From Arthrobacter ramosus (lineage in GTDB: Bacteria; Actinomycetota; Actinomycetes; Actinomycetales; Micrococcaceae), in contig NZ_BAAAWN010000001.1 of assembly GCF_039535095.1 (NCBI RefSeq), positions 2,604,001-2,668,000 on the forward strand: a stretch of DNA of 64,000 bases, written 5' to 3'. A model generated the notes under the pieces. That model made no database searches. It had not been told where the DNA came from and saw only the letters and a program-made list of their open reading frames with translations. Shown here in pieces: positions 5,245-53,139 of the stretch; within the stretch, counting starts at the first letter, position 1, and every line of letters starts with the position of its first letter. The translations under genes and the position numbers were made by a program.

Positions 5245-5282
5245 CTATTGGCCAAATATCCCTTCCTGCAGCGGAGTTACCC

Positions 5283-7665: not shown

Positions 7666-7692
7666 GCACTCATTATGACCCATATCATCACA

Positions 7693-7759
7693 TTTAGTCT
7701 GAAGATCGGACTTAAATCGGCATCTTGTGGCACAAAGATGTCCGCAGATAGCCTGCGGA
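7693..7759. promoter_or_regulatory. Cluster of operator-like inverted repeats between ROK2 and dehydrogenase B
   Basis: Three repeats lie in 67 bases: an AT-rich one with arms TTTAGTC (7693-7699) and GGACTTAAA (7708-7716) similar to the repeat before ROK1; TTGTGGCACAA (7725-7735, perfect 5-base arms); and TCCGCA...TGCGGA (7741-7746, 7754-7759). The string TCGGCATCTTG (7717-7727) recurs at 10149-10159 upstream of the ABC importer operon. Confidence 0.5.
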
Positions 7760-7792
7760 TAGTGGCTTTCCAACCCATCCAAAGGAACATCA

Positions 7793-8887: not shown

Positions 8888-8927
8888 ACCGGGGCTTCGG
8901 CCTCACATCCTTGAAAAGAGTTTTCAT

Positions 8928-9836
8928 TTGCCTATTTCCCCCAGCCAGTTCGCCATCAATCCGCTCCAGTGGGTCGCCACGGACGACGGATGGATCAACC
9001 CCGGGCTTGCCCCTGCGCTCCCCGATCGTCTAGCCAGGATTGCTGCCGCGGGATTCACCGCGATCCAGTCCGAGGTTCCGTCCGGCTCCAGCGTGGCCGA
9101 ATATGCTCACGCCCTTGAAGTCGCTGGTATTCGCCCGGGCCCGGGATACGTCGGATTGCCCTGGGAAGAGCAATCTGCCGACAGGGCGCAATACCTCGAA
9201 CGCGCCAGGGTTCTTGCCGCCAACAATATCGAGCTTGGCAATGGGCTGCTCTTCCTGGCAATGGGTATGCAACGTGACGCACCGCGCGTGGCACATCCCG
9301 CCGTCGGTCACGACCACAACCCCGCGCGGCTGGAGCGGGTCCGGGACTACCTCTCCGAGGCCGCTGAAATCATCACCGCCGAAGGCGCAGTCGCCGCCTT
9401 GCACCCACACATCGGAACCTGGGTGGAAACCGCAGACGACGCCCGCTTCGTCCTGGACACGGTGGACGAGAAAATCCTGAAATTCGGTCCCGACGCCGGA
9501 CACTTTGCTTGGACTGGCATCGATCCAGCCCTGATCATCGCCGAATACCGCACTCGAGTAGCCGGGATCCACATCAAGGACTACCGATTGGATGTAGCAC
9601 TCAGGAGCCGCACCGAAGATATTGATTACCGATCCACGGTCCGTGCTGGAATCTGGACCGAGCCCGGAGCCGGCGACGCCGATATCCCTGGAATCTTGGC
9701 CTCCGCTGGTGATGACTTCACAGGCTGGGTGGTCGTCGAAGTGGACCGCGGAACCACGGAAGCCCCTGAAGACAGTGTTGATCTGTGCGGTCGCTGGTTT
9801 ACGAGCCACTTCGGACTGGAGAATGCTTCGCGCTGA
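8928..9836 (+). CDS. Xylose-isomerase-like TIM-barrel sugar phosphate isomerase/epimerase (copy 2)
   Basis: 302 residues starting at a TTG (8928). This start is chosen because GAAAAGAG precedes it and the sequence PISPSQFAINPLQWVATDDG then lines up with the N-terminus of copy 1 (4321); a longer frame begins at 8844 inside the preceding gene. The same metal-site motifs are present (HPHIGTWVET, FGPDAGHFAWTG, GIHIKDY, VVVEVDRG). Very similar to copy 1 throughout, so the two arose by duplication and probably act on the same or sister substrates under two ROK regulators. Followed by a terminator. Confidence 0.85.
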   Translation: MPISPSQFAINPLQWVATDDGWINPGLAPALPDRLARIAAAGFTAIQSEVPSGSSVAEYAHALEVAGIRPGPGYVGLPWEEQSADRAQYLERARVLAANNIELGNGLLFLAMGMQRDAPRVAHPAVGHDHNPARLERVRDYLSEAAEIITAEGAVAALHPHIGTWVETADDARFVLDTVDEKILKFGPDAGHFAWTGIDPALIIAEYRTRVAGIHIKDYRLDVALRSRTEDIDYRSTVRAGIWTEPGAGDADIPGILASAGDDFTGWVVVEVDRGTTEAPEDSVDLCGRWFTSHFGLENASR

Positions 9837-15605: not shown

Positions 15606-16771
<1,166 letters not shown>

Positions 16772-16887: not shown

Positions 16888-18561
16888 TCATGAGCCAAAG
16901 TCTCTGGCCAAAGGCAATTCGAACGTGAACGAGGCACCCCTGGACTCATTTTCCACGGCGTAGATTCTGCCGTGCTGACGCGTGATAATGCGGTGGCTGA
17001 GAGCTAGGCCAATGCCGCTTCCCGTGGACTTCGAGGTGAAAGCTCCGTCGAAGATGCGGCCGTCCGGAATGTGGGACAGGCCTTTGCCGCGATCAGCCAC
17101 CCGGAAAACGCCGGCCGTCTCGGTCGCGTACGTCGTGATGACGACGTGCCGCTCTCGCTGCGGCCAGCCAGACATCTCATCGATGGCATTGTGGCAAAGG
17201 TTCAGGATCACCTGCCCCGTAAGGACTTTCTCGCAGCGGATCCAGATCGGGCTCTCGCTCATGACCAGCTGCAATTCCGTCTCGTGTTGATCGGCCCGCA
17301 ACCGAACGAAGTACAGGCAATCCCTGACGATCTCGTTCAAGTCCGCCACTTGTTCGGAATGCTCCAACCGCACGACGAAATCGCGCAGGCTCTTCACGAT
17401 CTGGTTTGCCCGGTCGATTTGCAGCCGGGCATTATCCAGCCCATAAATAAGATCATTGATGCTACTCTCGGGATCCCTTACCCGGCGGGATACTCCGTCC
17501 ACGAAGTTCGTTGCTGCCGCAAGTGGTTGGCCGAGCTCGTGGGCGATCGCCATGGCCATATCACCCATCGCGTTGTACCGTCCCAGGTAATTCAGGTGCT
17601 CAAGGTCCCGCCGATGCTCTTCTTCGGCAGCAACCTGCTCCGTAATGTCCTGGAGCAGCAGCATAGCGCCGGTGAGATCCTTTTCAAGTGCTAGGTACTG
17701 GCAGCTGACGCCGAACCATTTGTTGGCACCGTCGGGATGCGCAACTTCGATGCGCAGACTCGAGGAGGATCCGTCAGCGGGGTCCCTGGCCAGAGCTTTC
17801 TCCAGGGCAGGCCTCGAGGAGACGGCGCAGAGGTCAACGAAGCTCTCCCCCACCAGCTCGTCCACTGCGTGCCCAAGTTGACCCGCTGCTGCTCCACTGG
17901 CGAAAGTGATTCGGCCATCCCAGTCCAGCACGAGGATACCCTCAGCCATGCGCCGCAGGAATGCCTGCAAACGCCCCTCTGTCCTCTGTAGGTCCGATTT
18001 CAGGGATTCTTCCTTCTCGATGTCCCGGAACTGAACCATGATGGCCTCGCCGGCTGTCAGTCCGACCCGGACCGCAATGGCTTCAGTCAGGAATTCCCGC
18101 CCCGTCTTGGACCGGTACATCCACTCGGTTCTGCTGATTCCGTGGTCGGCCGCATCCTGAAGCCATTGCACACCCACCGAGCGGCGGAATCGGGAATCCG
18201 CGCTACTCATGTCCGGCGCCTTGAGCGGTTTCAATTCCTCCAAGGTGAAGCCCAGCATTTCGCAGGCAGCCTGGTTGGCCCAGAGGATGTCCTTGGTGAC
18301 GGCGTCATGGATCAGGATGCAGTAACTCAGCGACTGGACGAGACGTTCATAATCCTCGGTGGTGGGGCCTGGCCGGACAGAAAGGCCCGGACCGGAAGAA
18401 ACCTTCGGTCCGGCGGACGGATCCGGCTGTATGGACGGAGGGGGACTAATGTCGCTGGGCTCGACAGTCCGGCCCAGCGGTTCGCCCGGCAAGGAAATAG
18501 GCACAAACAATCTTAGCGCGTGAACGCCATTTCCCGCATAGGTATTTCCTTTACTTTTCAT
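16888..18561 (-). CDS. Cytoplasmic PAS-PAS sensor histidine kinase of the iac locus
   Basis: 557 residues with no clear membrane segment. A proline-rich head (about 35-68) is followed by PAS 1 (about 68-182, ILIHDAVTKDILWANQAACE), a coiled linker, PAS 2 (about 195-310), a dimerisation/phosphoacceptor helix with His341 in IAHELGQPLAA, an N box (ILNLCHNAIDEM) and a G box (TGSGIGLALSHRI). The architecture resembles FixL and soluble aromatic sensors of the TodS/StyS kind. No receiver domain is present, so it needs a partner; the only response regulator in the window is the FixJ-type one at 27984-28604. It diverges from iacA. AAGGAAA lies before the start. Confidence 0.88.
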   Translation of the reverse strand: MKSKGNTYAGNGVHALRLFVPISLPGEPLGRTVEPSDISPPPSIQPDPSAGPKVSSGPGLSVRPGPTTEDYERLVQSLSYCILIHDAVTKDILWANQAACEMLGFTLEELKPLKAPDMSSADSRFRRSVGVQWLQDAADHGISRTEWMYRSKTGREFLTEAIAVRVGLTAGEAIMVQFRDIEKEESLKSDLQRTEGRLQAFLRRMAEGILVLDWDGRITFASGAAAGQLGHAVDELVGESFVDLCAVSSRPALEKALARDPADGSSSSLRIEVAHPDGANKWFGVSCQYLALEKDLTGAMLLLQDITEQVAAEEEHRRDLEHLNYLGRYNAMGDMAMAIAHELGQPLAAATNFVDGVSRRVRDPESSINDLIYGLDNARLQIDRANQIVKSLRDFVVRLEHSEQVADLNEIVRDCLYFVRLRADQHETELQLVMSESPIWIRCEKVLTGQVILNLCHNAIDEMSGWPQRERHVVITTYATETAGVFRVADRGKGLSHIPDGRIFDGAFTSKSTGSGIGLALSHRIITRQHGRIYAVENESRGASFTFELPLARDFGS

Positions 18562-18670: not shown

Positions 18671-19810
18671 ATGACCGACGTTCTGGATACAGCCCTGCAA
18701 ACCACCCTCGACGGCGTGCTCGAAGTCATCGCCCGGCGCCGGGAAGAATTCGGAGAAAAGAAATTTGTCCCTCGGGACATCATTTCAGAATTCAAGAAGG
18801 TGGGTATTTACCGTGCCGCCACGCCGCGGCGCTTCGGCGGCGATGCCCTTCCGCCGAGCCGGTTTCTCCGGATCATCGAACAAATCTCCGCGGTGGATGC
18901 CTCAGCCGGCTGGGTCGCCAGCTTTGGCTCCTCTGTCTACCTGGCTGCCCTCCCCCTCGATACCCAGGCCGAGCTCTACGCGGACGGCCCCGACGTCGCA
19001 TTTGCCGGGGGGCTTTATCCGGTGCGGAAGGCCGAACGCAGTGACGACGGCTGGAATGTAACGGGCGAATGGAAATTCTCCAGCGGCTGCAGGGGCGCCG
19101 ACATCCTTGGCGTTGGACTCGTGGGCAACGAACACACCGGCGGCAAGCCGCTGACCGCCCTGCTCCGCCCCGAGCAAGTCGAGATCGTTGAGAATTGGGA
19201 CGTCATCGGCCTCAACGGCACGGGCAGCCATGACCTGAGAGTCACCGGCCAGGTGGTCCGGGACGAATGGACTTTTGTCCGCGGCGGCGAGCCCACCGTT
19301 GACGAGCCCTTGTACCGCTACCCCGCCATTGCCTACGCAGCCCAGGTACTGGCCGTCGTCAATCTCGGCGCGGGCCGCGCGGCCCTGGACTACGCCATCA
19401 GCACGGGCAGCGGGCGCACCGGAATTACCGGTGCACCCAAGCTTGCAGACAGGGCATACTACCGGATGGACGTGGCCAAAGCCGAGGCGGAACTCCGCTC
19501 GGCACGGGCGTTCTTCTACGAGATCTCCGATGAGGTGTACGCCACGGTCGAGGCTGGCGACCCGGCGACGGACAAGCAAAAGGCGCTGTTGCGCCTGGCT
19601 TCCACCCATGTTGCACGTGTCGGTGCCAAGGCTGTGCATACTGCCTACACTCTCTCCGGAACGGCGGCCATCTACGACGTCAACCCGATGCAGCGCTATT
19701 TGCGCGACGCGTCGGTCGTCACGCAGCACGCCTTTCTGGGCGACGGGATCTACGACGGCGCGGGCGCTGTCCTGATGGACGTCCCGCCGTCGATCCCTGC
19801 CTTCATCTGA
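18671..19810 (+). CDS. iacA: Indole-3-acetate monooxygenase, IacA (group D flavin monooxygenase)
   Basis: 379 residues with the acyl-CoA-dehydrogenase fold of reduced-flavin-dependent monooxygenases (HsaA and HpaB-C2 relatives): FGGDALPPSRFLRIIEQISA, WKFSSGCRGADILGVGL and the C-terminal DASVVTQHAFL. It has no flavin reductase domain and would take FADH2 or FMNH2 from the reductase at 28835 (iacG). In characterised iac clusters IacA oxidises indole-3-acetate at C2. The following genes keep the known order A-B-I-C-D-E-F, which makes this assignment strong. GGAGAAA precedes the ATG. First gene of the operon, facing away from the sensor kinase. Confidence 0.87.
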   Translation: MTDVLDTALQTTLDGVLEVIARRREEFGEKKFVPRDIISEFKKVGIYRAATPRRFGGDALPPSRFLRIIEQISAVDASAGWVASFGSSVYLAALPLDTQAELYADGPDVAFAGGLYPVRKAERSDDGWNVTGEWKFSSGCRGADILGVGLVGNEHTGGKPLTALLRPEQVEIVENWDVIGLNGTGSHDLRVTGQVVRDEWTFVRGGEPTVDEPLYRYPAIAYAAQVLAVVNLGAGRAALDYAISTGSGRTGITGAPKLADRAYYRMDVAKAEAELRSARAFFYEISDEVYATVEAGDPATDKQKALLRLASTHVARVGAKAVHTAYTLSGTAAIYDVNPMQRYLRDASVVTQHAFLGDGIYDGAGAVLMDVPPSIPAFI

Positions 19811-19832
19811 TATCGCACCCCAAGGAACTGAC

Positions 19833-20213
19833 ATGAGCGAAACCGCAACCACACAGCCGCTGCGCGTACTGTTCTGCATTGGCATCAACCAGAATTTCTT
19901 CGATCTACCCAAGAGCGAAATCGGCACGGTCTGGACTGCCTTCTCAGGAATGATGGCCGAGATGTCTCGCATGTCCGGCGTCGAGGTCATCGGCAACATG
20001 GATGACGATTCCCACCTGGTGGGACCGTCGGACGGCTGGCCGTGGACGTGCTACATCCTGGCCGACGTTGACACCCAAGCGACCGTCAAGGCAGCCTGCA
20101 ATCTCTTCCGGACCACCGTGGTGGGCCAGTATGCCCTGTGGCGGTACGCCAAGATCGAGGCGCGCATCGGCCGAGCCCTGACCATCCGCGACGACGTCGA
20201 AACGGCTGGCTAG
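19833..20213 (+). CDS. iacB: IacB-like small protein of indole-3-acetate catabolism
   Basis: 126 residues, soluble, starting with RVLFCIGINQNFFDL after a short head. No classical enzyme motif; the end GQYALWRYAKIEARIGRAL is well structured and looks like a ferredoxin-like or dimeric alpha/beta fold. Its place directly after iacA and its size match iacB, a gene of the Pseudomonas putida iac cluster needed for processing oxidised indole-3-acetate. AAGGAA lies before the ATG. The name rests mainly on gene order. Confidence 0.75.
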   Translation: MSETATTQPLRVLFCIGINQNFFDLPKSEIGTVWTAFSGMMAEMSRMSGVEVIGNMDDDSHLVGPSDGWPWTCYILADVDTQATVKAACNLFRTTVVGQYALWRYAKIEARIGRALTIRDDVETAG

Positions 20214-20217
20214 CCAC

Positions 20218-20715
20218 ATGGCCCGCGACACGGCAGCCGCCTTGGCCGAGCGCTTGGCGGTGCTGGAGTTCCAGGAGGCGGCACGAGCCACGCTCTCCCG
20301 CTACATGGACCTTTGCGACGTCCCGCGTCCTTCCTTCCACAGGGATGACATGGCCTCGCTATTCACCGAGCAAGCGGTCTGGGAAGGCATCGGCCCCGAA
20401 TACACCGCGAAGTTCGGCCGTCTGGAAGGTCGTCCCGCGATCCTCTCGATGCTCGCGGACTTCCTCCCGCCGTCGTCGCACTTCAAACGCAACGTCCATC
20501 TGCTGGGCAATGGCAGCGTCGCCGCAGCCGGCGGCGGCACCGCCAGCGGCCAGTGGATCATGCAGCAGCTTTCGGAGTACGACGGCGGCGGGACGGAGCT
20601 GATCTCGGCCCGCCTCACGGTCGATTTCGAGCTCAGCGAAGGAACGGCCCGGATCCGCCATTTCCGCACCGAAAAGCTGTTTACCGCCGATCTCGTCAAC
20701 CCAGTCCATGCATAG
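20218..20715 (+). CDS. iacI: SnoaL-like (NTF2 fold) protein, IacI
   Basis: 165 residues beginning 5 bases after the iacB stop. Pattern ALAERLAVLEFQEAARATLS, then YMDLCDVPRP, DMASLFTEQAVWEG, and a C-terminal SARLTVDFELSEGTARIRHF as in SnoaL/NTF2-like proteins, which are also the fold of dioxygenase beta subunits. In iac clusters iacI sits between iacB and iacC, as here. Exact role is uncertain; an accessory part in early indole-3-acetate oxidation is likely. Confidence 0.78.
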   Translation: MARDTAAALAERLAVLEFQEAARATLSRYMDLCDVPRPSFHRDDMASLFTEQAVWEGIGPEYTAKFGRLEGRPAILSMLADFLPPSSHFKRNVHLLGNGSVAAAGGGTASGQWIMQQLSEYDGGGTELISARLTVDFELSEGTARIRHFRTEKLFTADLVNPVHA

Positions 20716-20743
20716 CACCCAGAGAGATACCAAGGAGTACCCG

Positions 20744-22024
20744 ATGACTTCACCAACGTCAGAGAAGGCCGGCGGGTTCGCAGGCCTGGCCGAAGGCGAC
20801 CGCGTCGCCGCACAGCTTTACACCGACCCCGAGATCTTCGACTGGGAGATGGAGAAGATCTTCTACAGCACCTGGGTCTGGGTGGCGCATGAGAGCGAGA
20901 TCCCGGACGCCGGCAGCTTCAAGATGTCGCACATCGGCCTGCAGCCGGTGATCGTGAACCGGGACCGCAAGGGCAATTTCAACGTCTTGCTCAACCGCTG
21001 CCGCCACCGCGGCGCCAGCGTCTGCGAGGTCCCCAAGGGCAAGGCGAACGGCTTCACCTGCCCTTACCATTCCTGGTCCTACTCCCTGGAAGGCAACCTG
21101 CGCGGCATCCCGTACCCGGACGGCTACGAGGGCGTGACCGAGAAGCGCGACCTGCCCCTGCAGCGCCTGCGCGTAGAGAGCTACAACGGACTCATTTTCG
21201 CCAGCTTCAAGACCGACATCGAGCCGCTCGAGGACTTCCTCGGCGATGCGAAAATCTGGATCGACCGCTTCATGAAACAGGGCGCCGGCTTCCCGGTCAA
21301 GGTCCAGGGAGAGCACAAGTTCCGCTTCAACGGCAACTGGAAGATCCAGCTGGAAAACACCACCGACGGCTACCATTTCCCCATCGTCCACCGCTCCTGG
21401 ATGGCGTCCGTAGATGCCGAAACCGCGGACATGCTGTCCTTCATGACCGATGAGAGCGCGGTCACCCATGCCCTCGGCAACGGGCACAGCGTCGCCATCA
21501 TGGTCCCCGAGCACGTGGACCTGGAGGAGGACGACGGCACCGAGGAACTGCAGGAGCGCTTCCGCCACATCATCGATGAGCTTTCCGAGACCATGCCGCA
21601 GGACCAGGTCCGCCGGATCGTTCGCTCCATGCACGGCGCGGGCTACAACCTGAACCTGTTCCCCAACCTTTCACTGTCCATGTCCTTCTTCCGGGTTCTG
21701 CGCCCGATCTCCGTCAACGAGACGGAAATCCAACACATGGCGCTTGGCCTCGACGGCGGCCCGGAGAGCGTGAACCGCGAGCGCCTGCGGATCCACGAGC
21801 ACTTCCAGGGGCCGTTCGGCTTCGGCACCTCGGATGACTCCGAGGCATGGGACCGGGTTCAGCGCGGCGCCGTGGCAAACCCGGACATGCCGATCCTGGT
21901 CAACCGTGGCCTGGGACGTGAGGTGACCGTGGACGAAGGCTGGAAGACCTCGCATGTGACGGACGAAACCGGCATGCGTGAATCGTATGCAATGTGGAAA
22001 AGGATGATGAGCGATGAAAACTGA
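20744..22024 (+). CDS. iacC: Rieske non-heme iron ring-hydroxylating dioxygenase, alpha subunit (IacC)
   Basis: 426 residues from the ATG at 20744 (AAGGAG upstream; a longer frame starts inside iacI). The Rieske [2Fe-2S] ligands are in RCRHRGASVCEV and CPYHSWSY. The mononuclear iron site is NTTDGYHFPIVHRSW, with the bridging Asp and both His ligands. A catalytic C-terminal domain follows (FPNLSLSMSFFRVLRP). Paired with the beta subunit gene, which overlaps by 11 bases. In the iac pathway this oxygenase acts on dioxindole-3-acetate on the way to catechol. Electrons should come from the reductase at 23386. Confidence 0.93.
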   Translation: MTSPTSEKAGGFAGLAEGDRVAAQLYTDPEIFDWEMEKIFYSTWVWVAHESEIPDAGSFKMSHIGLQPVIVNRDRKGNFNVLLNRCRHRGASVCEVPKGKANGFTCPYHSWSYSLEGNLRGIPYPDGYEGVTEKRDLPLQRLRVESYNGLIFASFKTDIEPLEDFLGDAKIWIDRFMKQGAGFPVKVQGEHKFRFNGNWKIQLENTTDGYHFPIVHRSWMASVDAETADMLSFMTDESAVTHALGNGHSVAIMVPEHVDLEEDDGTEELQERFRHIIDELSETMPQDQVRRIVRSMHGAGYNLNLFPNLSLSMSFFRVLRPISVNETEIQHMALGLDGGPESVNRERLRIHEHFQGPFGFGTSDDSEAWDRVQRGAVANPDMPILVNRGLGREVTVDEGWKTSHVTDETGMRESYAMWKRMMSDEN

Positions 22025-22571
22025 GACCGTCGAAGAAGTGGCCGCCATCGACAACCGCCCGGCACCCGTGCCCTTCGAGCTGGGCCTCGGCAGGTTGTCC
22101 GAGCCCCTCGTGGGCCGCGCCATCGAGCTGATCTGGCGCGAAGCGCAGCTCTTGGATGACAAGGATTACGAGGCCTGGCAGACCCTCTACATGAAGGATG
22201 GCAAGTACGTCATCCCTGTCGACCCGGATACCGAGGACTTCGAGTCGTCCCTGAACATGGTGTACGACGACGCGCGGATGCGCCACATGCGCGTCACCCG
22301 CCTGGTGCAGGGGTACTCGATGTCCGCCGTCGCCGCCGCCCGCACCTCACGAACCATCTCCCGTTTCACCGTGGAAGAGATCACGGAGAACACCGTCACG
22401 CTGCGCTCCGCGCAGGTCCTGGTGGGTTTCAAGCGGGACAAGTTCCAGATGCTCGGGGCCGACCTCACGCACCGTATCCGCTTCACTGGGGACGACGCCC
22501 GGATCGAGCTTAAACTCATCCGCCTGGTCAACTCCGACTCCGCCGTCAACGCCTCCGGCTTCCTCCTTTAG
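22014..22571 (+). CDS. iacD: Ring-hydroxylating dioxygenase, beta subunit (IacD)
   Basis: 185 residues of the dioxygenase beta-subunit (NTF2-like) family: RAIELIWREAQLLDDKDYEA, WQTLYMKDGKYVIPVD, MRHMRVTRLVQGYSMS and the RTSRTIS motif typical of beta subunits. The start overlaps the end of iacC by 11 bases, so translation is coupled to give equal amounts. It has a structural role in the alpha-beta oxygenase. Confidence 0.92.
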   Translation: MKTETVEEVAAIDNRPAPVPFELGLGRLSEPLVGRAIELIWREAQLLDDKDYEAWQTLYMKDGKYVIPVDPDTEDFESSLNMVYDDARMRHMRVTRLVQGYSMSAVAAARTSRTISRFTVEEITENTVTLRSAQVLVGFKRDKFQMLGADLTHRIRFTGDDARIELKLIRLVNSDSAVNASGFLL

Positions 22572-22579
22572 GACCAACC

Positions 22580-23338
22580 ATGAACTTCGGACCCACAGTG
22601 AACCATGTCGCACTGGTCACCGGCGCCGCCCGCGGACTCGGTGAAGTCATCGCCCGTAAGCTGCACAAGGAAGGCTTCCGGGTCGCCATCACCGGCACCA
22701 GCGCCGCCTCCGTGCAGCCCATCGCGGACAGTCTGGATCCTTCCGGGGAAACCGTTTGGGCGGGCGCCCTGGATGTCCGCAAAAAGGCCGATTTCGAGGC
22801 CGTCCTGAACCTTCTGGCCGAAAAATGGGGCGGCACGGACGTCCTGGTGAACAATGCCGGACGTTCACAGGTTGCCCCCTTGCTTGAGATCACCCCCGAG
22901 GAGTTCTCCGCGAACGTGGAGATCAACCTCAACGGCACCTTCCTGGGCTGCCAGGTGTTCGGTCCGCATTTCCGGGACCGAGGCTACGGGCGGATCATCA
23001 ACATCCACTCCTTGGCAGGCCACAACGGCGGCACGGCCACGGGAGCCCACTACGCGGCGTCGAAGGGCGGGGTGTCGACTCTGACTAAGGTGTTCGCGCG
23101 GGAGTTCGCGTCCTTTGGGGTCACGGTCAACGCGGTCTCCCCCGGACCGCTGGACCTTCCCGTGGTGTACGAGACGGTGGACCCGGACAAGCTGGACGCG
23201 ATCAAGGCCAACATTCCCGTCGGCCGCTTCGGAGACGCCGGATTCATTGCGGAGACGGTGGCCTTATTGGCATCCCCCGGCGCCGGCTCCGTAACGGGGG
23301 CGTGCTGGGACATCAACGGCGGCCTCTACATGCGTTAG
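22580..23338 (+). CDS. iacE: Short-chain dehydrogenase/reductase (IacE)
   Basis: 252 residues of classical SDR type: cofactor motif TGAARGLGEV near the N-terminus, NNAGRSQ, and catalytic Tyr and Lys in HYAASKGG with an upstream Ser in NIHSLAGHNGG. The C-terminus CWDINGGLYMR is normal for the family. Spaced 8 bases after iacD with AGGA as ribosome site. In the known pathway IacE acts between the first hydroxylation and the dioxygenase step, forming dioxindole-3-acetate. Confidence 0.9.
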   Translation: MNFGPTVNHVALVTGAARGLGEVIARKLHKEGFRVAITGTSAASVQPIADSLDPSGETVWAGALDVRKKADFEAVLNLLAEKWGGTDVLVNNAGRSQVAPLLEITPEEFSANVEINLNGTFLGCQVFGPHFRDRGYGRIINIHSLAGHNGGTATGAHYAASKGGVSTLTKVFAREFASFGVTVNAVSPGPLDLPVVYETVDPDKLDAIKANIPVGRFGDAGFIAETVALLASPGAGSVTGACWDINGGLYMR

Positions 23339-23385
23339 CGCCGGCTGGCCCATTACAAGCTGAGAGAAGAAAGGAGCGTTGCCCC

Positions 23386-24345
23386 ATGGGTATGTTCAAG
23401 GTACGAGTAGCCGAAGTGCTGGAGGAAACCAGCAACATCAAGTCTTTCCGCCTCAAGCGCACGGATGGGGCACCGTTCGATCCTTATCCGGCGGGGGCGC
23501 ATATCGACGTCGTCGGCCCGACCGCCGTTGTCAGGCAGTACTCGCTGTGCAGTCCACCGGACGATCTTGACGACTACGTGGTTGCAGTCAAGCTCGAACC
23601 GGAGTCACGGGGTGGTTCCTTGGCACTCCATGACCACGTCCAGGTAGGCCACGAGCTGGAGATCAGCGCCCCGCGCAATCTCTTGTCCGTCGCCGGGGGC
23701 GCCGACCGGCACATCCTGGTGGCTGCGGGCATCGGCGTCACCCCGATGATCAGCATCGCCTACCACCTGCACCGGAGAGGAGAAGAGTTCGAGTTGCACT
23801 ACTTTGCCCGTTCCCGTGAAGATGCCGCGTTCTGCGAACTCCTTGAGAAGCGCAGCGGTTTCGGCGAACGCGTCCATTTCCATTTCGGACTGGAGCGTGA
23901 GCAGCAGCCGGCCGTTCTGAATGGCGCATTCGCCCGCCTCGGTGCCGCCTCGCACGTCTATACCTGCGGACCTCAGGGGTTCATGGAGCGTGTACGGGAA
24001 AGCGCGGCTTCGGTGATTCCTGAGGACAATGTGCATGTCGAACACTTCCAGGCGGCCGAGCCCGTGGACAGAGCCGGCGATACCCCTTTCGAGGTGGAAC
24101 TCGACGACGAAGTCTATGAGGTTCCCGTAGGTCAGTCTATCGTGCAGGTCCTCGCGGATAACGGGGTCGAAGTGGACACATCGTGCCAGGAAGGGATCTG
24201 CGGCACGTGCATCATGGGCGTCCTGAAGGGCGAACCGGACCATCGAGACCAGTGCATGTCCAGCAGCGAAAAGAAGGCCAACGGCCAGATCGCGGCCTGC
24301 GTTTCCCGGTCAAAATCCCCCAGGCTGGTTCTGGAGCTATTCTGA
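23386..24345 (+). CDS. iacF: Oxygenase reductase with C-terminal [2Fe-2S] ferredoxin (IacF)
   Basis: 319 residues from the ATG at 23386 with AAAGGAG upstream; an earlier in-frame start at 23302 lies in iacE. Phthalate-dioxygenase-reductase type: flavin-binding RQYSLCSPP, NAD-binding LVAAGIGVTPMISIA and TCGPQGFMERV, then a plant-type ferredoxin domain with Cys ligands in SCQEGICGTCIMG and a final Cys in IAACVSRS. It passes electrons from NADH to the IacCD oxygenase. A stem-loop follows, so transcription probably ends or drops here. Confidence 0.92.
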   Translation: MGMFKVRVAEVLEETSNIKSFRLKRTDGAPFDPYPAGAHIDVVGPTAVVRQYSLCSPPDDLDDYVVAVKLEPESRGGSLALHDHVQVGHELEISAPRNLLSVAGGADRHILVAAGIGVTPMISIAYHLHRRGEEFELHYFARSREDAAFCELLEKRSGFGERVHFHFGLEREQQPAVLNGAFARLGAASHVYTCGPQGFMERVRESAASVIPEDNVHVEHFQAAEPVDRAGDTPFEVELDDEVYEVPVGQSIVQVLADNGVEVDTSCQEGICGTCIMGVLKGEPDHRDQCMSSSEKKANGQIAACVSRSKSPRLVLELF

Positions 24346-24377
24346 CAGCCGCTTGCCTTACATACGGAACAACCTGA

Positions 24378-24417
24378 GGTCACGACCGGTCCGGTCCCGA
24401 GCGTTCCGGCCGTGACC
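24378..24417 (+). terminator. Stem-loop after iacF
   Basis: Arms GGTCACGACCGG (24378-24389) and CCGGCCGTGACC (24406-24417), 11 of 12 paired, 16-base loop, no strong T-run. It separates the iacA-F operon from the rhamnosidase gene. Confidence 0.5.
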
Positions 24418-24462
24418 ATTCTGGTTCGAATTCAAGATTGAAGAAGAGGTCGACTAAGAACC

Positions 24463-27400
24463 ATGGCTCGATTGACAAATCTGCGCGTCAACAGGCTAAC
24501 TCGGCCTTTGGCCATTGATACGGACACTCCGCGTTTCGGCTGGGCACTCGAATCTGATGATTTCAATCATCGCCAGGAATACTTCCAAATAGAAGTAACT
24601 ACTGCGGCCGGAGATCCCGTGTGGGACTCGGGCCGCGTCATTTCCGCTTGCTCCCAGGAGATTGCTTTCGGCAATTGGGGCGAACTGCATGGTCAGCTGA
24701 CCCCCGAAGGAAAATACACGTGGACTGTAACGGTCTGGGATAACAAGGGCCGTGAACTGTCCGCGGTGTCCACGTTCGAGACAGCGATGTTCGCCACGAA
24801 CATGTACGCCTGGGACGGGGCGCAATGGATCGGCGCAAGCCGCCCCCACCTTGATTCGCACAGCCTGGTTGTGTACCGGGTCAGGTGCCTGTTCAGGATC
24901 CCGCAGGGCAGCACGATGGCCTCCTTCATTCTGGGGGCCAATGACTTCCGGCTTCGCCACGAAATGCTGAACGAGTACCGTCTAGCAGGCGAAAACCATG
25001 TTCGTTTTTCCGTGGACGTCGGAGATCCATCAAATCCGGCATTCCGCATATTTCGGCTGGGATATGCTATCGGCGACCGGCCAGACCTACCGCTGATCGA
25101 TATAAATGCAGGCGCTTGCGCCACAAACCTGCCCGAACTCTTGCCGGGGCCACAGGCCCATCAGGAGAACGAGATTGAACTCATCTGCGAGTCGTCCACA
25201 TTCAAGGTGCGAATCAACGGAAAGTACCTGTTGTGGAATGGGAGCGATATTCTCCAAGTAAACCCGCGAGGCATGGACGACGTCGCCGCCTATCCCGTCC
25301 TTGGCGAAGTCGGCTTTCAAGTTCTTCCCGCCGAGCAACTCGACATCAGGAACTATGAGATCAGGAACTACCGGGACCCCCAGGAAGCCCTGTTCGATTC
25401 GGGGGACTATCATGTCTTCGCTCAGGCCGGAGGGGTCGGGATTGATGGCAATTGCCTGGCGGTGCACGGCGGCGAAGACGGACGGACCATCATCCGGGAC
25501 CCTAGTCGAGGCGCTTTGCCCATTCTCCGCCGAAAGTTCCAGGCCCAGCGGGATGTCACCGGGGCCAAGATCTACATCACTGCACGAGGAATTTACGAGT
25601 TGCACGTCAATGGCGAGAAGATCGGCAACGATTGGTTCAATCCAGGCAGCTCGGACTATCGGTACACCATCGAATACTCTGCCTATGACATCAGCGAACA
25701 AATTCGCACGGGAGACAACACTCTCACGGTCACTCTCGCCCCAGGGTGGTGGGCGGACATGATGAGTTTCATGGAAACCAACACCAATTTCTATGGGGAC
25801 CGGCCTTCCCTATTGTGCAAAATGGTCCTCGACTATTCCGACGGAAGCAGTCAAATACTTGTGTCCTCGCCGGGCAGTTGGGAGGTGCACACAGGCGGCC
25901 CCACGAAGAACGGCAGCTTCTTCCAGGGTGAGCGCTACGACGCTCGTGACGAATTGTCCCTCACTGACGAAAACCGATGGGGACCGGCCGCAGTGGTTCT
26001 GCCTTTGGAGCGAAATGCGCAGCCGCAGCTTGTTTCGAAACCCGATGAACCCGTGCGTGTATTTGAGGTGCTCGAATCGACCCTTATTGGCGAGGCACGG
26101 CCCGGTTCGGACTCCTGGATATACGACATGGGCGTAAACATGGTTGGAGTACCCGAGCTGACGTTTGACGGTCGTGAAGGCCAAGAAATCGTCATTCGTA
26201 CTGCTGAGGTCCTGTATCCTCCCCTGGAGGAGTACCTTGAGCGGGACATCGATGGACTCCTGATGACGGAGAACCTACGCGAGGCCATGTCCACAGACGT
26301 CTACACGTGCCGTGAAGGGCTACAGAAGTTCACCCCGCGCTTTACGTTCCACGGTTACCGATACATCCAGATTTCCGGGACCCGGGGCCCGATCCCCGCA
26401 GCGAACGTCAAGGGCATCGTGCTCAGTTCCATCGCTGAGCTAACTGGAAAAGTGAGCACTTCCAACCCCCTTTTGAACCAGCTCGCAGACAATATCCACC
26501 GCTCACAGATCGGAAACTTTCTTTCGATTCCAACTGATTGCCCCCAGAGAAATGAGCGTATGGGATGGCTCGAGTCTGTCACCGAGTTTGCCCGGACTTC
26601 CTGCTTCAGCAGCGACGTCCAGAAATTCTACGAACACTATCTGCGCATTGTCCGGGACTCACAGGTTACCAAGGAGATCCTCTCTTCTAAGACTGATGCC
26701 ATGGGTTTCTATGGACCTGGATCCCGGCTGTTCAAGGGAGACGTTGTCACCGGAATGTACCCCAGCTACGCTCCGGCCTACGACGCCTATCGGTCGTGGG
26801 GAACGCCATGGAGTTCTGCCGGTGTCCTTCTGCCCTTCGAGGTCTATTCCCAATACGGCACGACGTCAGTCATCGAGCAGTCGTTTGAATCAATGCTGAC
26901 TTATCTGGAGGCCATGGAGGGCCTCAGGATGCGCGGTGCAAAATCCATTTCCATCGACGGAGGGGTGTGCGGGGACTGGCTGTCGTTGGACAAGCCGCCG
27001 TACAGCTACACCGATGCCAGCATTTACGTCTACATGCTCGGCTGCTTCGCCAAGATGGCCACGGCTATTGGTGAGGACGAAGTTGCCAGCAGCTACCAGT
27101 CTCGCCACGCTGCAGCCAAGGAAGAGTGGAATGAGTTATACATAGACCCGGGAACGGGCGGTTTCCGGGATGATTTGACGCTCGTAAACGTCTCACAATC
27201 GTCGTGCTCGCTGGCACTACACTTCGACCTTCCTCTGGAAAAGTACAGCGCCTCCATTTTCGAAGCGCTCTGCGAAAAGGTCGCGGAAGGCTATGCGGGA
27301 CGGCCGTACTGCATCACGACGGGACTCTTCACCACGCCGATCATAAATCTCGTGCTCTCGGACCATGGTCGGTCAGATCTGGCCTACAGGATGATTGAGA

Positions 27401-27930
27401 ACACGGCCTTCCCGTCATGGCTGTATCCCGTCACGCAAGGAGCCACATCCAGTTGGGAGCGATGGGACTCGTACACTGCAGAAGATGGTTTCGGCGGCAA
27501 CAATGCCATGAATTCGTTTAATCACTTCTCGCTTGGCGCAGTAGGAGCCTGGCTTTTCAACCGCGTTGCGGGAATCGACCGCGATGCGGGGTCGGCCGGA
27601 ATGCAGCACTTCGTCCTGCACCCGGTGCCGGGGGGTTCGCTGACCCATGCCTCAGCCGCCGTGATGACCGACTACGGCCGCATCCAGGTCCAATGGACAA
27701 GGGAAGACGAAGGCCACTCGTGGCATTGCCGTTTACGGATTCCGGCCAACATGTCTGCGAGGATCGAACTTCCCTGGGCGCCGCACAGCGCGCATTCTTC
27801 CGTGCCGGCCGACGTCAATGTGGTGGACGATAAGAACCGCCATTTTCAGGTTCCCTCGGGCAGCTGGCACTTGAGCGTTGATCAAGAACTCCTGGTCATC
27901 GAGAAAAGCCCCGAGAAATTCACTGCGTGA
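24463..27930 (+). CDS. Alpha-L-rhamnosidase, glycoside hydrolase family 78, cytoplasmic
   Basis: 1155 residues, no signal peptide. The N-terminal beta-sandwich starts VNRLTRPLAIDTDTPRFGWA, an inserted lectin-like domain covers about 140-310, the rhamnosidase N domain about 360-520 (IYELHVNGEKIGNDWFNPG), the (alpha/alpha)6 catalytic barrel about 640-1040, and a C-terminal beta domain follows. Catalytic motif PTDCPQRNERMGW gives Asp692 and Glu698, and SSWERWDSY gives Glu999. The further acidic residue usual in GDAQ after GW is Ser705 here (GWLESVTEFA), a notable change. It sits between iacF and iacG, where no rhamnosidase is expected. It may release rhamnose from imported plant glycosides. Confidence 0.85.
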   Translation: MARLTNLRVNRLTRPLAIDTDTPRFGWALESDDFNHRQEYFQIEVTTAAGDPVWDSGRVISACSQEIAFGNWGELHGQLTPEGKYTWTVTVWDNKGRELSAVSTFETAMFATNMYAWDGAQWIGASRPHLDSHSLVVYRVRCLFRIPQGSTMASFILGANDFRLRHEMLNEYRLAGENHVRFSVDVGDPSNPAFRIFRLGYAIGDRPDLPLIDINAGACATNLPELLPGPQAHQENEIELICESSTFKVRINGKYLLWNGSDILQVNPRGMDDVAAYPVLGEVGFQVLPAEQLDIRNYEIRNYRDPQEALFDSGDYHVFAQAGGVGIDGNCLAVHGGEDGRTIIRDPSRGALPILRRKFQAQRDVTGAKIYITARGIYELHVNGEKIGNDWFNPGSSDYRYTIEYSAYDISEQIRTGDNTLTVTLAPGWWADMMSFMETNTNFYGDRPSLLCKMVLDYSDGSSQILVSSPGSWEVHTGGPTKNGSFFQGERYDARDELSLTDENRWGPAAVVLPLERNAQPQLVSKPDEPVRVFEVLESTLIGEARPGSDSWIYDMGVNMVGVPELTFDGREGQEIVIRTAEVLYPPLEEYLERDIDGLLMTENLREAMSTDVYTCREGLQKFTPRFTFHGYRYIQISGTRGPIPAANVKGIVLSSIAELTGKVSTSNPLLNQLADNIHRSQIGNFLSIPTDCPQRNERMGWLESVTEFARTSCFSSDVQKFYEHYLRIVRDSQVTKEILSSKTDAMGFYGPGSRLFKGDVVTGMYPSYAPAYDAYRSWGTPWSSAGVLLPFEVYSQYGTTSVIEQSFESMLTYLEAMEGLRMRGAKSISIDGGVCGDWLSLDKPPYSYTDASIYVYMLGCFAKMATAIGEDEVASSYQSRHAAAKEEWNELYIDPGTGGFRDDLTLVNVSQSSCSLALHFDLPLEKYSASIFEALCEKVAEGYAGRPYCITTGLFTTPIINLVLSDHGRSDLAYRMIENTAFPSWLYPVTQGATSSWERWDSYTAEDGFGGNNAMNSFNHFSLGAVGAWLFNRVAGIDRDAGSAGMQHFVLHPVPGGSLTHASAAVMTDYGRIQVQWTREDEGHSWHCRLRIPANMSARIELPWAPHSAHSSVPADVNVVDDKNRHFQVPSGSWHLSVDQELLVIEKSPEKFTA

Positions 27931-27983
27931 GTTGAGTCAGGTGCTTGGCATCTCCCAACGCAGTAGCTGAAGGTGCTGCTGCC

Positions 27984-28604
27984 TCAGGCCACAGTGATGT
28001 CGTTTTGCAGGATGTCCCGCACCAGGGTGGCGATGCTGTCTGCCCCAGTCTTTGCCTTGATCCTGGTGCGGTGGACGTCGATGGTTTTCACGCTGGTCCC
28101 CAGCTTCCTCGCAATGTTCTGGCTCGGCAGGCCATCGATGACCAGGGCCAGGATCTCGCGTTCGCGCGGTGTCAGGCCAGCGATCCGCTGTTCGATTTCC
28201 CGCCGTCCGCGGCTGGATTCGAAGCGTGTCCGGGCGAGCTCGAGGGTTTCCTGCACAACATCGAGCATCTGCTGGGGATCGTATGGTTTCTCCAGGAAAT
28301 TGACGGCCCCCTGGCGCAGCGCCTTCACGGACATCCGGATGTCGCCATGGGCGGAGACAAAAATGATGGGAATCGGCGAAGCGATCTGGTTCAGGGTCTC
28401 CTGCAGTTGAAACCCGCCAGCCCTGGGCATGCGGACGTCCAGGACAAGGCAGGACGGGATGTCCGGATCGTACTCGGCCAGGAACGACGCAACGTCATAA
28501 AAACTGCGGGACTGGATACTGACGGACTCGAGCAGCCAGGCCAGTGAGGCACATAGCTCCCGGTCGTCGTCGACGATGTAAACGAGGGCTTCTGATGAAT
28601 CCAT
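27984..28604 (-). CDS. FixJ/NarL-type response regulator of the iac locus
   Basis: 206 residues from the ATG at 28604 (AAGG upstream); the frame runs on to 28745 but the extra residues look non-coding. Receiver domain with acidic pocket VDDDRE, phosphoacceptor Asp56 (LVLDVRMP), a conserved Ser in FVSAHGD and Lys in FLEKPYD. A LuxR-type HTH follows (LTPREREILALVIDGLPSQN, then GTSVKTIDVHRTRIKAK). It lies on the opposite strand between the rhamnosidase and iacG. It is the only response regulator here, so it is the probable partner of the kinase at 16888-18561; such pairs (TodS/TodT-like) activate aromatic catabolism. Confidence 0.9.
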   Translation of the reverse strand: MDSSEALVYIVDDDRELCASLAWLLESVSIQSRSFYDVASFLAEYDPDIPSCLVLDVRMPRAGGFQLQETLNQIASPIPIIFVSAHGDIRMSVKALRQGAVNFLEKPYDPQQMLDVVQETLELARTRFESSRGRREIEQRIAGLTPREREILALVIDGLPSQNIARKLGTSVKTIDVHRTRIKAKTGADSIATLVRDILQNDITVA

Positions 28605-28834
28605 GTAGGGCGACCTTGCACTGCCTGAGCATAGTAGGGAACTCGACCGTATCGAGCCCAGGGCATGGCAGTCAATCAATAACGCGGTAAGGAAACTACT
28701 TATACAACTGAAGCGAATTCTGAAATGGAGTGGAACAAATCGCAATATCCATTAAGTCCGCTCCGCCATAGATTTTTGTTACAAGGATTCATGGAATGAC
28801 CAGAAGTACGGGTCACGACGGTTGGAGAAGAGAA

Positions 28835-29350
28835 ATGACTGAGCTCACGCAAATCCAGAAAGATTTTCGCTCTGCGATGGCGCACCTGCCTGCGGCAGTG
28901 AACGTTGTGACCACGGCCGGCCCGCACGGGCGCGTGGGAATCACCGTCAGCGCTGTCTGCTCCGTTACCGACTCCCCGCCCACGGTCCTGGTCTGCGTCA
29001 ACCAGAACAGCGCCACGCACGATATCTTCAACAGCAACGGCCAGGTCTGCATCAACGTCCTCAGCGGCGAACACGAGGAACTCGCCCGGCATTTCTCCGG
29101 AGCGACGCGCGTACCCATGGAGGAGCGCTTTGGCTGGGACATCTGGGAGAAGGGCACTGACTCCGTGCCCGTGCTGCGTGACGCCCTCGTCAAGATCGTG
29201 GGTCGCATCAGCGGGCGCAGCGTCCAGGGATCGCACTCAGTAATTTTCGTCCAGGTGGAACGCGTTGAGGTCCAGGAGGAGCGTGACAGCCTCATTTACT
29301 TCAAGAGGCAGTTTCATCGCCTTTCCGTAACTCCGGGGCTCGTCGCTTGA
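28835..29350 (+). CDS. iacG: Flavin reductase component (IacG)
   Basis: 171 residues of the flavin-reductase-like FMN-binding split barrel: FRSAMAHLPAAVNVVTTAGP, GRVGITVSAVCSVTDSPPTV and LVCVNQNS, ending HSVIFVQVERVEV. The start at 28835 has GGAG 7 bases upstream; an ATG at 28796 with AAGGA is an alternative giving 184 residues. It should supply reduced flavin to the monooxygenase IacA. It overlaps the amidase gene by 4 bases. Separated from the main iac operon by the rhamnosidase and regulator genes. Confidence 0.88.
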   Translation: MTELTQIQKDFRSAMAHLPAAVNVVTTAGPHGRVGITVSAVCSVTDSPPTVLVCVNQNSATHDIFNSNGQVCINVLSGEHEELARHFSGATRVPMEERFGWDIWEKGTDSVPVLRDALVKIVGRISGRSVQGSHSVIFVQVERVEVQEERDSLIYFKRQFHRLSVTPGLVA

Positions 29351-30627
29351 GCACCAACGGTTCGCTCCGCCAGCTCTCCATGGCCCTGGCGTCCGGCGCA
29401 CTGACGCCGAGCTCTGCCGTCGAACAGGCCTGGCAGCGCATGCAGGCTACGGAACCCGAGATCCGGGCCTGGGTCGAGATCGATGCGGCCGGCGCCCGCT
29501 TCGCTGCACGGGAACTGGAGCGCTCGACAAATCCCCGCGGGCCACTTTGGGGAGTGCCTGTGGGCGTCAAGGACCTGATCGACGTCCAGGGGCTTCCCAC
29601 CCGCTGCGGCAGCGGGCTGCGCGGCGGCGAACCAGCCGGCACAGATGCCGATTGCGTGAAACTTCTCCGGCAGGCAGGCGCCGTGGTCATGGGCAAGACA
29701 GTCACCACCGAGTTCGGCTACTTCGCCCCCGGCCCTACACGGAATCCCACCAATCCCGCCCACACACCAGGCGGCTCATCCAGCGGATCGGCGGCCGCCG
29801 TCGCAGCAGGAATGGTCCCCTTGGCCCTTGGAACTCAGACGGCAGGATCACTTACCCGCCCGGCGTCGTTCTGCGGAGTCGCAGGGTTCGTCGGAGCCAA
29901 GGGCCAGTTTTCCACGAGCGGCATCACAGGACTGAGCCCCTCATTGGACTCCCTCGGCTTCCTGGCCCGCACGGTGGCCGATCTTCATCTCGCGTGGAGC
30001 GCCATGATTGGGGATGAGCTGGCGTCGGAGGACAAAGCTGACGGCGATTCCGTGCGCCTCCTGCTATGGAACGGCAGTGGCTTGGGCGAGGTCTCTGCAG
30101 ACATGGTCGCCGCCGTCGAACAGGCTGTCGCCGCGATCAGTCATGAAGGTGTCCACTGCGAAGACTGGACCGACCACGATGTCGTCCGCAGGCTCGCCGA
30201 CGACCACGCCACAATCATGGCCTTCGAAGCGGCTCGCGAGCGCTTCTGGGAGCTGCAACAGCCAGACCGGCTGAGCGTCCCGCTGGCCGAATTATTGGCA
30301 ACCGGCGCCACCACACCCGAGGCGGACTATGTGGCAGCCCTCTACCGTGTCGCGGACGCCCGAACGTTCGTGGATGCTGCCCTTGCTCAGTTCGATGCCA
30401 TCCTTGGCCCGGCCGCCCTCGGCGCCGCGCCCGCCGGCATCGAAGCTACCGGCACTCCGGTGCTCAGCCGGCCCTGGCAGGCCTTGGGCCTCCCGGTCAT
30501 CACCATCCCCGGCCTCCGGGACTCCGGCGACATGCCCCTCGGCCTTCAACTCATCGGGGCCCCCGGCCGCGAACACCGCCTTTTCTCCATCGCGGAACGG
30601 ATTGAAGCTTCCCTGGCTCACGTATAG
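29347..30627 (+). CDS. iacH: Amidase-signature hydrolase (IacH)
   Basis: 426 residues starting at TTG, overlapping iacG (TTGA). Amidase signature enzymes use a Ser-Ser-Lys triad: Lys75 in GVPVGVKDLID, the Gly/Ser loop TPGGSSSGSAAA (Ser145/146) and nucleophile Ser168 in GTQTAGSLTRPASFCG. In Pseudomonas iac clusters iacH encodes such an amidase, possibly used to open indole-acetate conjugates or a pathway amide. A strong terminator follows 22 bases after the stop. Confidence 0.85.
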   Translation: MSTNGSLRQLSMALASGALTPSSAVEQAWQRMQATEPEIRAWVEIDAAGARFAARELERSTNPRGPLWGVPVGVKDLIDVQGLPTRCGSGLRGGEPAGTDADCVKLLRQAGAVVMGKTVTTEFGYFAPGPTRNPTNPAHTPGGSSSGSAAAVAAGMVPLALGTQTAGSLTRPASFCGVAGFVGAKGQFSTSGITGLSPSLDSLGFLARTVADLHLAWSAMIGDELASEDKADGDSVRLLLWNGSGLGEVSADMVAAVEQAVAAISHEGVHCEDWTDHDVVRRLADDHATIMAFEAARERFWELQQPDRLSVPLAELLATGATTPEADYVAALYRVADARTFVDAALAQFDAILGPAALGAAPAGIEATGTPVLSRPWQALGLPVITIPGLRDSGDMPLGLQLIGAPGREHRLFSIAERIEASLAHV

Positions 30628-30721: not shown

Positions 30722-30991
30722 TCATGCCCAGGCCGCGTCGGCAGTCCAGTACTCGGAACCGTTGGCGCTGATTCCATGCTTCCATTCAGTCATCCGCTTC
30801 AGCTTGGGTTCAATCCGGGCTGTAATGGCGTCGGCGGCCTCCGGTCCGTCATGGTCCGCCTGCCAGTGGACCCAGTTCACCTCCAGGTCGTTTTCGTCGT
30901 GGACGAACAGGTCCACATGGTGCCAGCCGTAGCCGAAGGTGTCCGCATAGCAAGTCAGGAACATCCGGTCGTGCTTCCCGGGATGGGCCAT
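30722..30991 (-). CDS. Small protein of unknown function between iacH and catB
   Basis: 89 residues from the ATG at 30991, chosen because AAAGGAG lies 8 bases upstream; the frame can begin 18 bases earlier. The sequence is rich in Trp, His and Asp (FGYGWHHVDLFVHDENDLEV, then NWVHWQADHDGPEA) and has no signal or membrane segment. I do not recognise the family. It is on the opposite strand to its neighbours, between the iacH terminator and the cat operon. Confidence 0.6.
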   Translation of the reverse strand: MAHPGKHDRMFLTCYADTFGYGWHHVDLFVHDENDLEVNWVHWQADHDGPEAADAITARIEPKLKRMTEWKHGISANGSEYWTADAAWA

Positions 30992-31173
30992 CGGGTGTTC
31001 TCCTTTCACGTCGTTTATCAGCAGGGTATGGGGGATTTCCTTACTTCGGAAGGGTATAAAGCTTTACAACTGCCTGTGGTTTCTCGCATTTTCACGCACG
31101 GAATTCAACGCAAGGATATTGAGGGAAAGCATCACCTTCGTGACCAACCATTCCAAATCCCTGAAGGCATTCC

Positions 31174-32277: not shown

Positions 32278-32323
32278 CCGGCCAAGGCAAACCACCCACC
32301 CCTCTCGAATGCAAAGGAGCATT

Positions 32324-53103: not shown

Positions 53104-53139
53104 CCCCGCTCCCCGAATAAGACCACCAAAGGCATGATC

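Follow-up and report, generated by a model that had tools for sequence, protein, structure and literature searches.

Why does an actinobacterial auxin-degradation locus enclose the gene of a large glycoside hydrolase, and do the genes around it have anything to do with auxin? The question is raised by 64,000 nucleotides of Arthrobacter ramosus (the window, G000:C1:2604001-2668000; source genome 5.25 Mb, single contig), in which genes of the iac type, for indole-3-acetate breakdown, lie with a sensor kinase, a response regulator, a putative importer with sugar-type enzymes, and a GH78 gene. The answer that we favor, at a probability of roughly 45%, is a chromosomal island for full indole-3-acetate degradation, coupled to the capture of conjugated substrates. 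What is observed is the gene content, its conserved synteny, the patchy occurrence of GH78, a recombination edge, and a packed row of counterpart genes in Streptomyces.

The iac core is complete, as a first-pass annotation made from the sequence had proposed. All nine genes, iacA through iacI, are intact open reading frames (ORFs) of the expected families, in the order A-B-I-C-D-E-F followed by G-H, and are syntenic with named iac-type loci. Adjacent iacC and iacD, which mark iac-like loci, overlap by 11 bp (20708-22571). The locus also extends beyond iacH (position 30627), through a small conserved gene to catB-catC-catA, and a histidine kinase gene precedes iacA. The core features are as follows.

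18671..19810, plus strand: iacA, acyl-CoA-dehydrogenase-like monooxygenase (family match and synteny)
19833..20213, plus strand: iacB, small protein, unmatched in Pfam and NCBIfam, named from position and synteny
20218..20715, plus strand: iacI, SnoaL-like protein (SnoaL_4)
20708-22024, plus strand: iacC, Rieske dioxygenase alpha (family match)
22014-22571, plus strand: iacD, Rieske dioxygenase beta (family match)
22580-23338, plus strand: iacE, SDR-family protein (family match and synteny)
23302-24345, plus strand: iacF, ferredoxin reductase (family match and synteny)
28796-29350, plus strand: iacG, flavin reductase (family match and synteny)
29347-30627, plus strand: iacH, amidase (family match and synteny)
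30725..31009, minus strand: smallX (a label used here), conserved 95-residue protein found in actinobacterial iac loci
31174-32277, plus strand: catB (profile match)
32213-32602, plus strand: catC ORF (profile match), the real start probably lying further in
32653-33522, plus strand: catA (profile match)

Because the iac genes and catB, catC, and catA stand together, the complete route would lie within one locus, which would carry indole-3-acetate to catechol and then through ring cleavage. In the reaction order of the published iac pathway (PMC9613470), IacA/G, IacE/B, and IacC/D/F (with IacI) would lead to catechol, and CatA/B/C would open the ring and process it further.

For comparison, we used iacC to fetch 80 named loci, the best of 463 relatives, 37 of them actinobacterial and 43 from Pseudomonas; within this set the closest named relatives of the window iacC are from Arthrobacter species. 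The annotation had equated the gene order with that of Pseudomonas putida, which was not borne out: A-B-I-C-D-E-F is present in the window, and exactly so in 11 of the 37 actinobacterial loci, but P. putida strain 1290 has iacABCDEFG-R-HI, against A-B-I-C-D-E-F-(GH78)-response regulator-G-H here. Homologues of iacA-I, catechol as the end product, and cat genes nearby are common to both (PMC6624763). The Pseudomonas loci have iacI between B and C and a weakly matching amidase gene between I and C (42 of 43; the last ends at a contig edge). Closer in order is the Marinomonas sp. NFXS50 cluster, iacABICDEFG, which differs in having a MarR regulator and, in the accessible part of its description, no mention of GH78 or of an importer-sugar module like the one below (PMC11373566). 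The iac-like loci of Conway et al. 2022 share adjacent iacC-iacD and gene content with the window, and Actinobacteria are among the phyla listed (PMC9613470). smallX occurs in at least 32 of the 37 actinobacterial loci (10-kb flanks) versus none of the 43 Pseudomonas loci. It found no match in Pfam and NCBIfam searches; it has many conserved tryptophans and histidines, and its predicted model (pLDDT 88) has no clear known fold.

Between iacF and iacG lie the GH78 gene and an opposite-strand response regulator gene, both intact, as the annotation had stated. Its view that the regulator splits the cluster did not hold up: the position of this gene is conserved, and its presumed partner lies upstream of iacA.

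16888..18561, minus strand: PAS-PAS sensor histidine kinase, divergent from iacA (PAS and kinase domain matches)
27984..28604 (if the first ATG is the start), minus strand: FixJ/LuxR-type response regulator, presumably paired with the kinase (receiver and LuxR output domains)

We take the regulator to be a part of the system and not an intruder because its position is conserved across Rhodococcus and Pseudomonas loci, in which the layout kinase(-)-iacA...iacF-regulator(-)-iacG recurs. Of the 80 named loci, 75 have a match to the kinase and 64 a match to the regulator, counts that are limited by contig ends. A matching kinase gene immediately before iacA is present in 20 of the 37 actinobacterial loci, and a reverse-strand regulator gene between iacF and iacG in 10; for the 43 Pseudomonas loci, the respective counts are 42 and 32. 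Several Streptomyces have the two genes together within the importer gene row. The domains, PAS plus kinase and receiver plus LuxR, are those of FixL and FixJ, with HisKA slightly below the Pfam cut-off (22.4 of 26.9 bits); the best PDB matches of the kinase are FixL-containing chimeras, and the best NCBIfam match of the regulator is FixJ, below cut-off. A Kyte-Doolittle scan of the kinase gave no 19-residue window above 1.6, that is, no transmembrane segment. Domain content and position identify the two as a FixL/FixJ-like pair belonging to the iac system.

A kinase with a LuxR-type regulator has reportedly been noted for some iac clusters. A limited literature search for iac two-component systems or histidine kinases found no iac pair, and the main text of PMC9613470 mentions neither "two-component" nor "histidine kinase" nor "LuxR." The published iac regulators considered here include those of the MarR type (PMC9613470, PMC11373566), that of P. 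putida among them, and Conway et al. 2022 is likewise concerned with MarR regulators (PMC9613470), unlike the two-component pair of the window. MarR is not universal in iac loci, since those of PsJN and LB400 have a LysR regulator (PMC11676955). Among the matches listed for the 20 ORFs scanned from 12874 to 36438, no MarR-type IacR was found; the kinase/regulator pair and a LysR gene were. The pair would be a candidate auxin sensor unlike the MarR type. An exact-word comparison of intergenic stretches, looking for a shared operator, gave no common word of 10 or more bases. In one P. putida locus (L066), an AraC-type regulator gene (13732-14652, plus strand) lies between iacF and the response regulator.

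Upstream of the kinase gene is a second conserved block, of importer and sugar-type genes.

2992..4146, minus strand: ROK-family regulator 1 (Pfam ROK, 117 bits; 42% identity to a ROK protein beside iac in Streptomyces sp. NBC_00564)
4321..5244, plus strand: xylose-isomerase-like TIM barrel, IolE-like (AP_endonuc_2; TIGR04379 at 90 bits, below the cut-off of 290; 51% to a protein of NBC_00564 locus L153)
5241..6371, plus strand: Gfo/Idh/MocA dehydrogenase 1, IolG-like (TIGR04380 at 134 bits, below the cut-off of 355)
6466..7782, minus strand: ROK-family regulator 2 (Pfam ROK, 139 bits; homologues of 42-44% beside iac in L034, L037, L039, and NBC_00564)
7793..8887, plus strand: Gfo/Idh/MocA dehydrogenase 2 (65% to its iac-linked Streptomyces counterpart)
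8844..9836, plus strand: xylose-isomerase-like TIM barrel 2, IolE-like (48% to L153)
10376..11896, plus strand: SBP_bac_5 solute-binding protein of an ABC importer, with a lipoprotein-like start (Pfam, 231 bits; 55% in Streptomyces)
11936-12877, plus strand: permease of the importer (counterpart in NBC_00564)
12874-14688, plus strand: permease-ATPase fusion of the importer (counterpart in NBC_00564)
14688-15605, plus strand: ATPase of the importer (counterpart in NBC_00564)
15602-16771, plus strand: Gfo/Idh/MocA dehydrogenase 3, levoglucosan-dehydrogenase type (profile match)

The two pairs of Gfo/Idh/MocA and TIM-barrel genes (4321-6371 and 7793-9836) resemble IolG/IolE, with scores below the NCBIfam cut-offs. 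We surveyed 206 genomes of the genus and found an iacC match (E <= 1e-60) in nine. A comparable block, with some differences in which ROK, Gfo, and TIM genes it includes, adjoins iac in G120, G160, G161, and G170; in G081, a related one is separated from iac by about 50 kb. The binding protein has a homologue of at least 66% identity in six of the nine iac-positive genomes, adjoining iac in five of the six, and in none of the 197 iac-negative ones; the Fisher p of 9e-10 overstates this association, as the genomes are related and the best seven candidates per genome were scored. No module gene reaches 40% identity in the 43 Pseudomonas loci.

The module is matched gene by gene in Streptomyces sp. 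NBC_00564, where one plasmid (L153) has iacA-B-C-D-E-F-G-H and cat genes in one direction. Divergent from them runs a row of Gfo, TIM, Gfo, TIM, binding protein, permease, permease-ATPase, ATPase, iacI, smallX, regulator, kinase, GH78, and amidohydrolase genes. The six junctions from ATPase-iacI through GH78-amidohydrolase measure -4, -4, +1, +17, -8, and -4 bp. Identity to the window is 65% for Gfo, about 50% for TIM, 55-69% for the importer (63, 63, and 69% for permease, permease-ATPase, and ATPase), 51-75% for the iac genes, 64% for the regulator, 50% for the kinase, and 71% for smallX, and only 33% for GH78. These arrangements argue strongly that iac, the kinase/regulator pair, and the importer belong together. 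A GH78 gene 93% identical to that of NBC_00564 stands on the iac contig, in the same order, in S. prunicolor and in Streptomyces sp. GESEQ-35; the contigs were equated by their length and, for S. prunicolor, also by iac genes within the stretch. Our first tblastn tables, with window proteins as queries, overlooked such genes because the flanks reached only about 10 to 14 kb; GH78 genes farther out, the Streptomyces ones included, were missed. Since the GH78s of the two genera differ so, GH78 most likely joined iac separately in each. In four further Streptomyces loci (L040, L041, L043, and L045), the importer adjoins iac, with no GH78 in the fetched stretch.

The GH78 gene and the gap before it are the features in which the window departs most from its relatives.

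24346..24462, no strand: gap between iacF and GH78, with a proposed hairpin that is not significant (z -0.85)
24463..27930, plus strand: GH78 enzyme of 1,155 residues (five GH78/Rha78A Pfam domains above cut-off)

Its GC content is 57.0%, versus 61.8% for the whole window. GH78 lies between iacF and the regulator in three of the nine Arthrobacter iac loci (window, G160, and G120). The comparison of gene order in relatives suggested by the annotation thus finds GH78 beside iac in some strains and six loci without it. The window-type gene occurs in 3 of 206 genus genomes, always inside iac, and no further copy was found across them (E <= 1e-200). A family draw of 395 genomes, overlapping the genus set, matched only the source genome (E <= 1e-150); at E <= 1e-100, a class draw of 394 genomes gave 11 other matches, none above 40% identity, and plasmid records gave six, all below 60%. 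No GH78 relative was found in viral contigs. That GH78 had come from another source within the genus or family was considered and rejected, no donor copy having appeared in the genus, family, class, or plasmid searches.

What can be traced is movement between iac loci. The three copies are intact, with DNA identities of 95.9-96.5%. For iacA, G160 has 86.3% identity to the window and 95.3% to GH78-less G161. In the regulator-to-iacH stretch of G160, we scored 75 sites separating carriers (window and G120) from noncarriers (G161 and G170): the 31 nearest GH78 are all carrier-like, the next 15 not at all, and a carrier-like tract of 8 follows, with 12 carrier-like among the last 44 overall. The first break was reached by 0 of 5,000 shuffles. 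Because the carrier-like sites next to GH78 end abruptly in G160, iac loci have probably exchanged a stretch that comprises GH78 and roughly half of the regulator gene, by gain in G160 or by replacement in others. The possibility that the three carriers form one clade was dismissed, since a gyrB+rpoB tree places the window with G142 (support 0.998) and G160 with G120 (0.819). No precise insertion with target duplication was seen by eye at the iacF-regulator gap. G160 has a second, divergent GH78 gene facing catA of its iac-cat locus, about 0.9 kb away (L194 4191-7031, minus strand).

GH78 genes number two to five in 10 of 11 genomes searched (none in G142), and the chance of one falling within a 35-kb locus is about 1-2% in each of five genomes computed. 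With three Arthrobacter genomes, and a different GH78 in the kinase/regulator rows of three Streptomyces strains, the association with iac that the annotation had pointed to is unlikely to be due to chance.

A stem-loop after iacF had also been taken to mark GH78 as a separate unit. This could not be upheld, nor could the hairpin as a terminator isolating GH78. Each gap fold was compared with 200 shuffles: in two runs on the window, 46/200 and 38/200 shuffles folded as well, and the two other carriers did worse, at 149/200 and 184/200 (121/200 for locus L012 in an earlier run). The pairing is also not kept in those two genomes. The six gaps lacking GH78, in which iacF and the regulator gene converge, each hold a strong hairpin, with a fold that 0/200 shuffles reached. 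The entire iacF-regulator gap differs between carriers and noncarriers, the carriers being without the strong hairpin.

As to what GH78 might act on, we aligned it with SaRha78A (3w5m, its best PDB match) and 21 other GH78s. Like SaRha78A, it has the GH78 domains and the catalytic Glu, Asp, and His positions; Asp692, Glu698, Trp702, Glu999, and His1021 are retained, and the positions of Glu698 and Glu999, which we take to be the general acid and base, are Glu in 21/21 homologues. Unlike SaRha78A, which by alignment has Asp643 and Asp635, the window enzyme has Ser705 and Asn697; the homologues have Asp at the former in 21/21 and at the latter in 19/21. Asp643 and Asp635 presumably line the sugar pocket. 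Ser705 is not a sequencing slip, since all three iac-site copies have it; the Streptomyces GH78 retains the canonical Asp. The enzyme is probably active, and because Ser705 replaces a conserved Asp, a rhamnoside substrate is uncertain; its sugar may be other than plain rhamnose. Since the protein has no signal-peptide-like hydrophobic start, its substrate is probably imported. Auxin conjugates and flavonoid rhamnosides are candidates for that substrate, as are other compounds, and we put the chance of an auxin conjugate at about one in three.

We imagine that the parts would work together as follows. The soluble PAS kinase and FixJ-type regulator, encoded antisense to the operon on either side of iacA-F, would sense an aromatic ligand and turn the genes on. 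The SBP5-type ABC importer would take up a larger, auxin-containing molecule, and in the cytoplasm the IolG-like dehydrogenase and IolE-like TIM barrel, joined in some strains by GH78, would oxidize or hydrolyze its sugar or cyclitol, so that the aromatic acid is freed and fed to iac. GH78 would be an optional part, moved by homologous recombination among Arthrobacter iac loci and recruited separately in Streptomyces. A TIM barrel is the usual partner of a DgpA-type Gfo/Idh/MocA enzyme, and the window dehydrogenases likewise adjoin AP_endonuc_2 TIM barrels. DgpA-type enzymes oxidize a sugar hydroxyl, after which the aglycone is eliminated (PMC8873060); this oxidative deglycosylation is a precedent for the window pairs, not a test of them, as the likeness is one of genes, with NCBIfam scores well below named-function cut-offs.

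Several observations weigh against the coupling of iac to conjugate capture. Five of the six importer genomes are closely related, so that the association counts are not independent, and binding-protein homologues of 40-45% occur in three iac-negative genus genomes. The importer and sugar genes are also found without GH78 in both Arthrobacter and Streptomyces; GH78 is absent from six of nine Arthrobacter iac loci, and of the 11 Streptomyces genomes searched only two were found to have it on the iac contig, one plasmid being a further case. The loss of an otherwise invariant aspartate counts on the same side, as do the different transporters of other iac loci. Synteny says nothing on the ligand, and a limited literature search did not find rhamnosylated auxin as a bacterial substrate.

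One can envision instead that ecology alone unites these genes, the sugar module and GH78 scavenging plant rhamnosides or cell-wall sugars, unrelated to auxin, and traveling with iac on an island useful on plants. The P. putida 1290 iac island likewise has methylamine, phenylacetaldehyde, and opine genes (PMC6624763); GH78 is optional, recombining, and lower in GC, and rhamnose isomerase is above cut-off in eight of the nine iac genomes, all three carriers included, irrespective of GH78. We consider this a serious possibility, if not a probable one: it sits poorly with the packed NBC_00564 row, in which importer and GH78 are interleaved with iacI, smallX, and the kinase/regulator pair, with importer homologues of at least 66% being confined to iac-positive genus genomes, and with two different GH78s having reached iac loci in two genera. 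SBP5 importers have sugars among their cargo, which tells against a further alternative, that a dipeptide-type ABC system imports auxin-amino-acid conjugates to be cut by an amidohydrolase, by IacH, or by both, with GH78 and the IolG/IolE-like genes serving elsewhere. The transporter families (SBP_bac_5/OppC-type) would suit it, as would the amidohydrolase directly after the Streptomyces GH78, a match to an Xaa-Pro dipeptidase model below cut-off (294 of 500 bits) with homologues of 56-61% in the module regions of G120, G161, G170, and G081. No such homologue was found in the window or in the upstream stretch of G160 examined, however, and the Gfo/TIM genes belong to the same conserved block, so that we find this unlikely.

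Less likely still, in our view, is that GH78 is a passenger with no current role in auxin use, trapped between convergent genes at a site prone to recombination. Most iac loci do without it, the gap is altered and its strong hairpin gone in carriers, and a conserved active-site Asp is lost; yet the gene is unbroken in all three species that have it, its silent codon differences (70-89) outnumber the replacement ones (45-51), and a second, different GH78 stands in the Streptomyces row.

To return to an island that couples auxin breakdown to conjugate capture, the degradation pathway itself is known. What is new is its setting: in this actinobacterial island, the iac genes come with a two-component sensor, an uptake module that is conserved and of the conjugate type, and a GH78 that is optional and recombines. 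In its fullest form, which we offer tentatively and rate below even odds, this would be an auxin-conjugate island of Actinobacteria, to which GH78 was recruited at least twice: an importer would bring in auxin bound to a sugar or a cyclitol, enzymes of the cytoplasm, among them a GH78 whose sugar pocket is altered, would release it, a dedicated two-component pair would sense auxin, and a full route would lead to ring cleavage. The literature on bacterial auxin breakdown considered here deals with free indole-3-acetate and with MarR or LysR regulators. If the proposal is true, the stored auxin of plants would be drained, beyond the free hormone; soil actinobacteria that import and open conjugates could tap this store and change how the microbes at the root set hormone levels.

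Transporters differ between iac lineages, as if the uptake system were swapped, which is consistent with the importer serving its own locus for uptake. A Rhodococcus iac locus has a sodium symporter (L030, 15330-16880), a Paeniglutamicibacter one an NMT1-type ABC system (L028, 13525-16311), and L017 (oriented) an MFS-like protein at 12467-13933, judged by the look of its sequence.

A reduced iac locus occurs in G142 (L015, 20 kb), with only iacI, C, D, F, and H, the regulator, and a kinase; iacA was not found genome-wide at E <= 1e-20, and this strain may use an oxidized form of auxin. Downstream lie a GH3 glycosidase and transporter-like and regulator-like genes. In the window, a DDE_3/HTH transposase-like gene (36612-37703, plus strand), about 3 kb past catA, is a possible island edge, and farther on amine oxidase, amino-acid permease, and aldehyde dehydrogenase genes cluster at 53134-59070 (plus strand), possibly for amine use.

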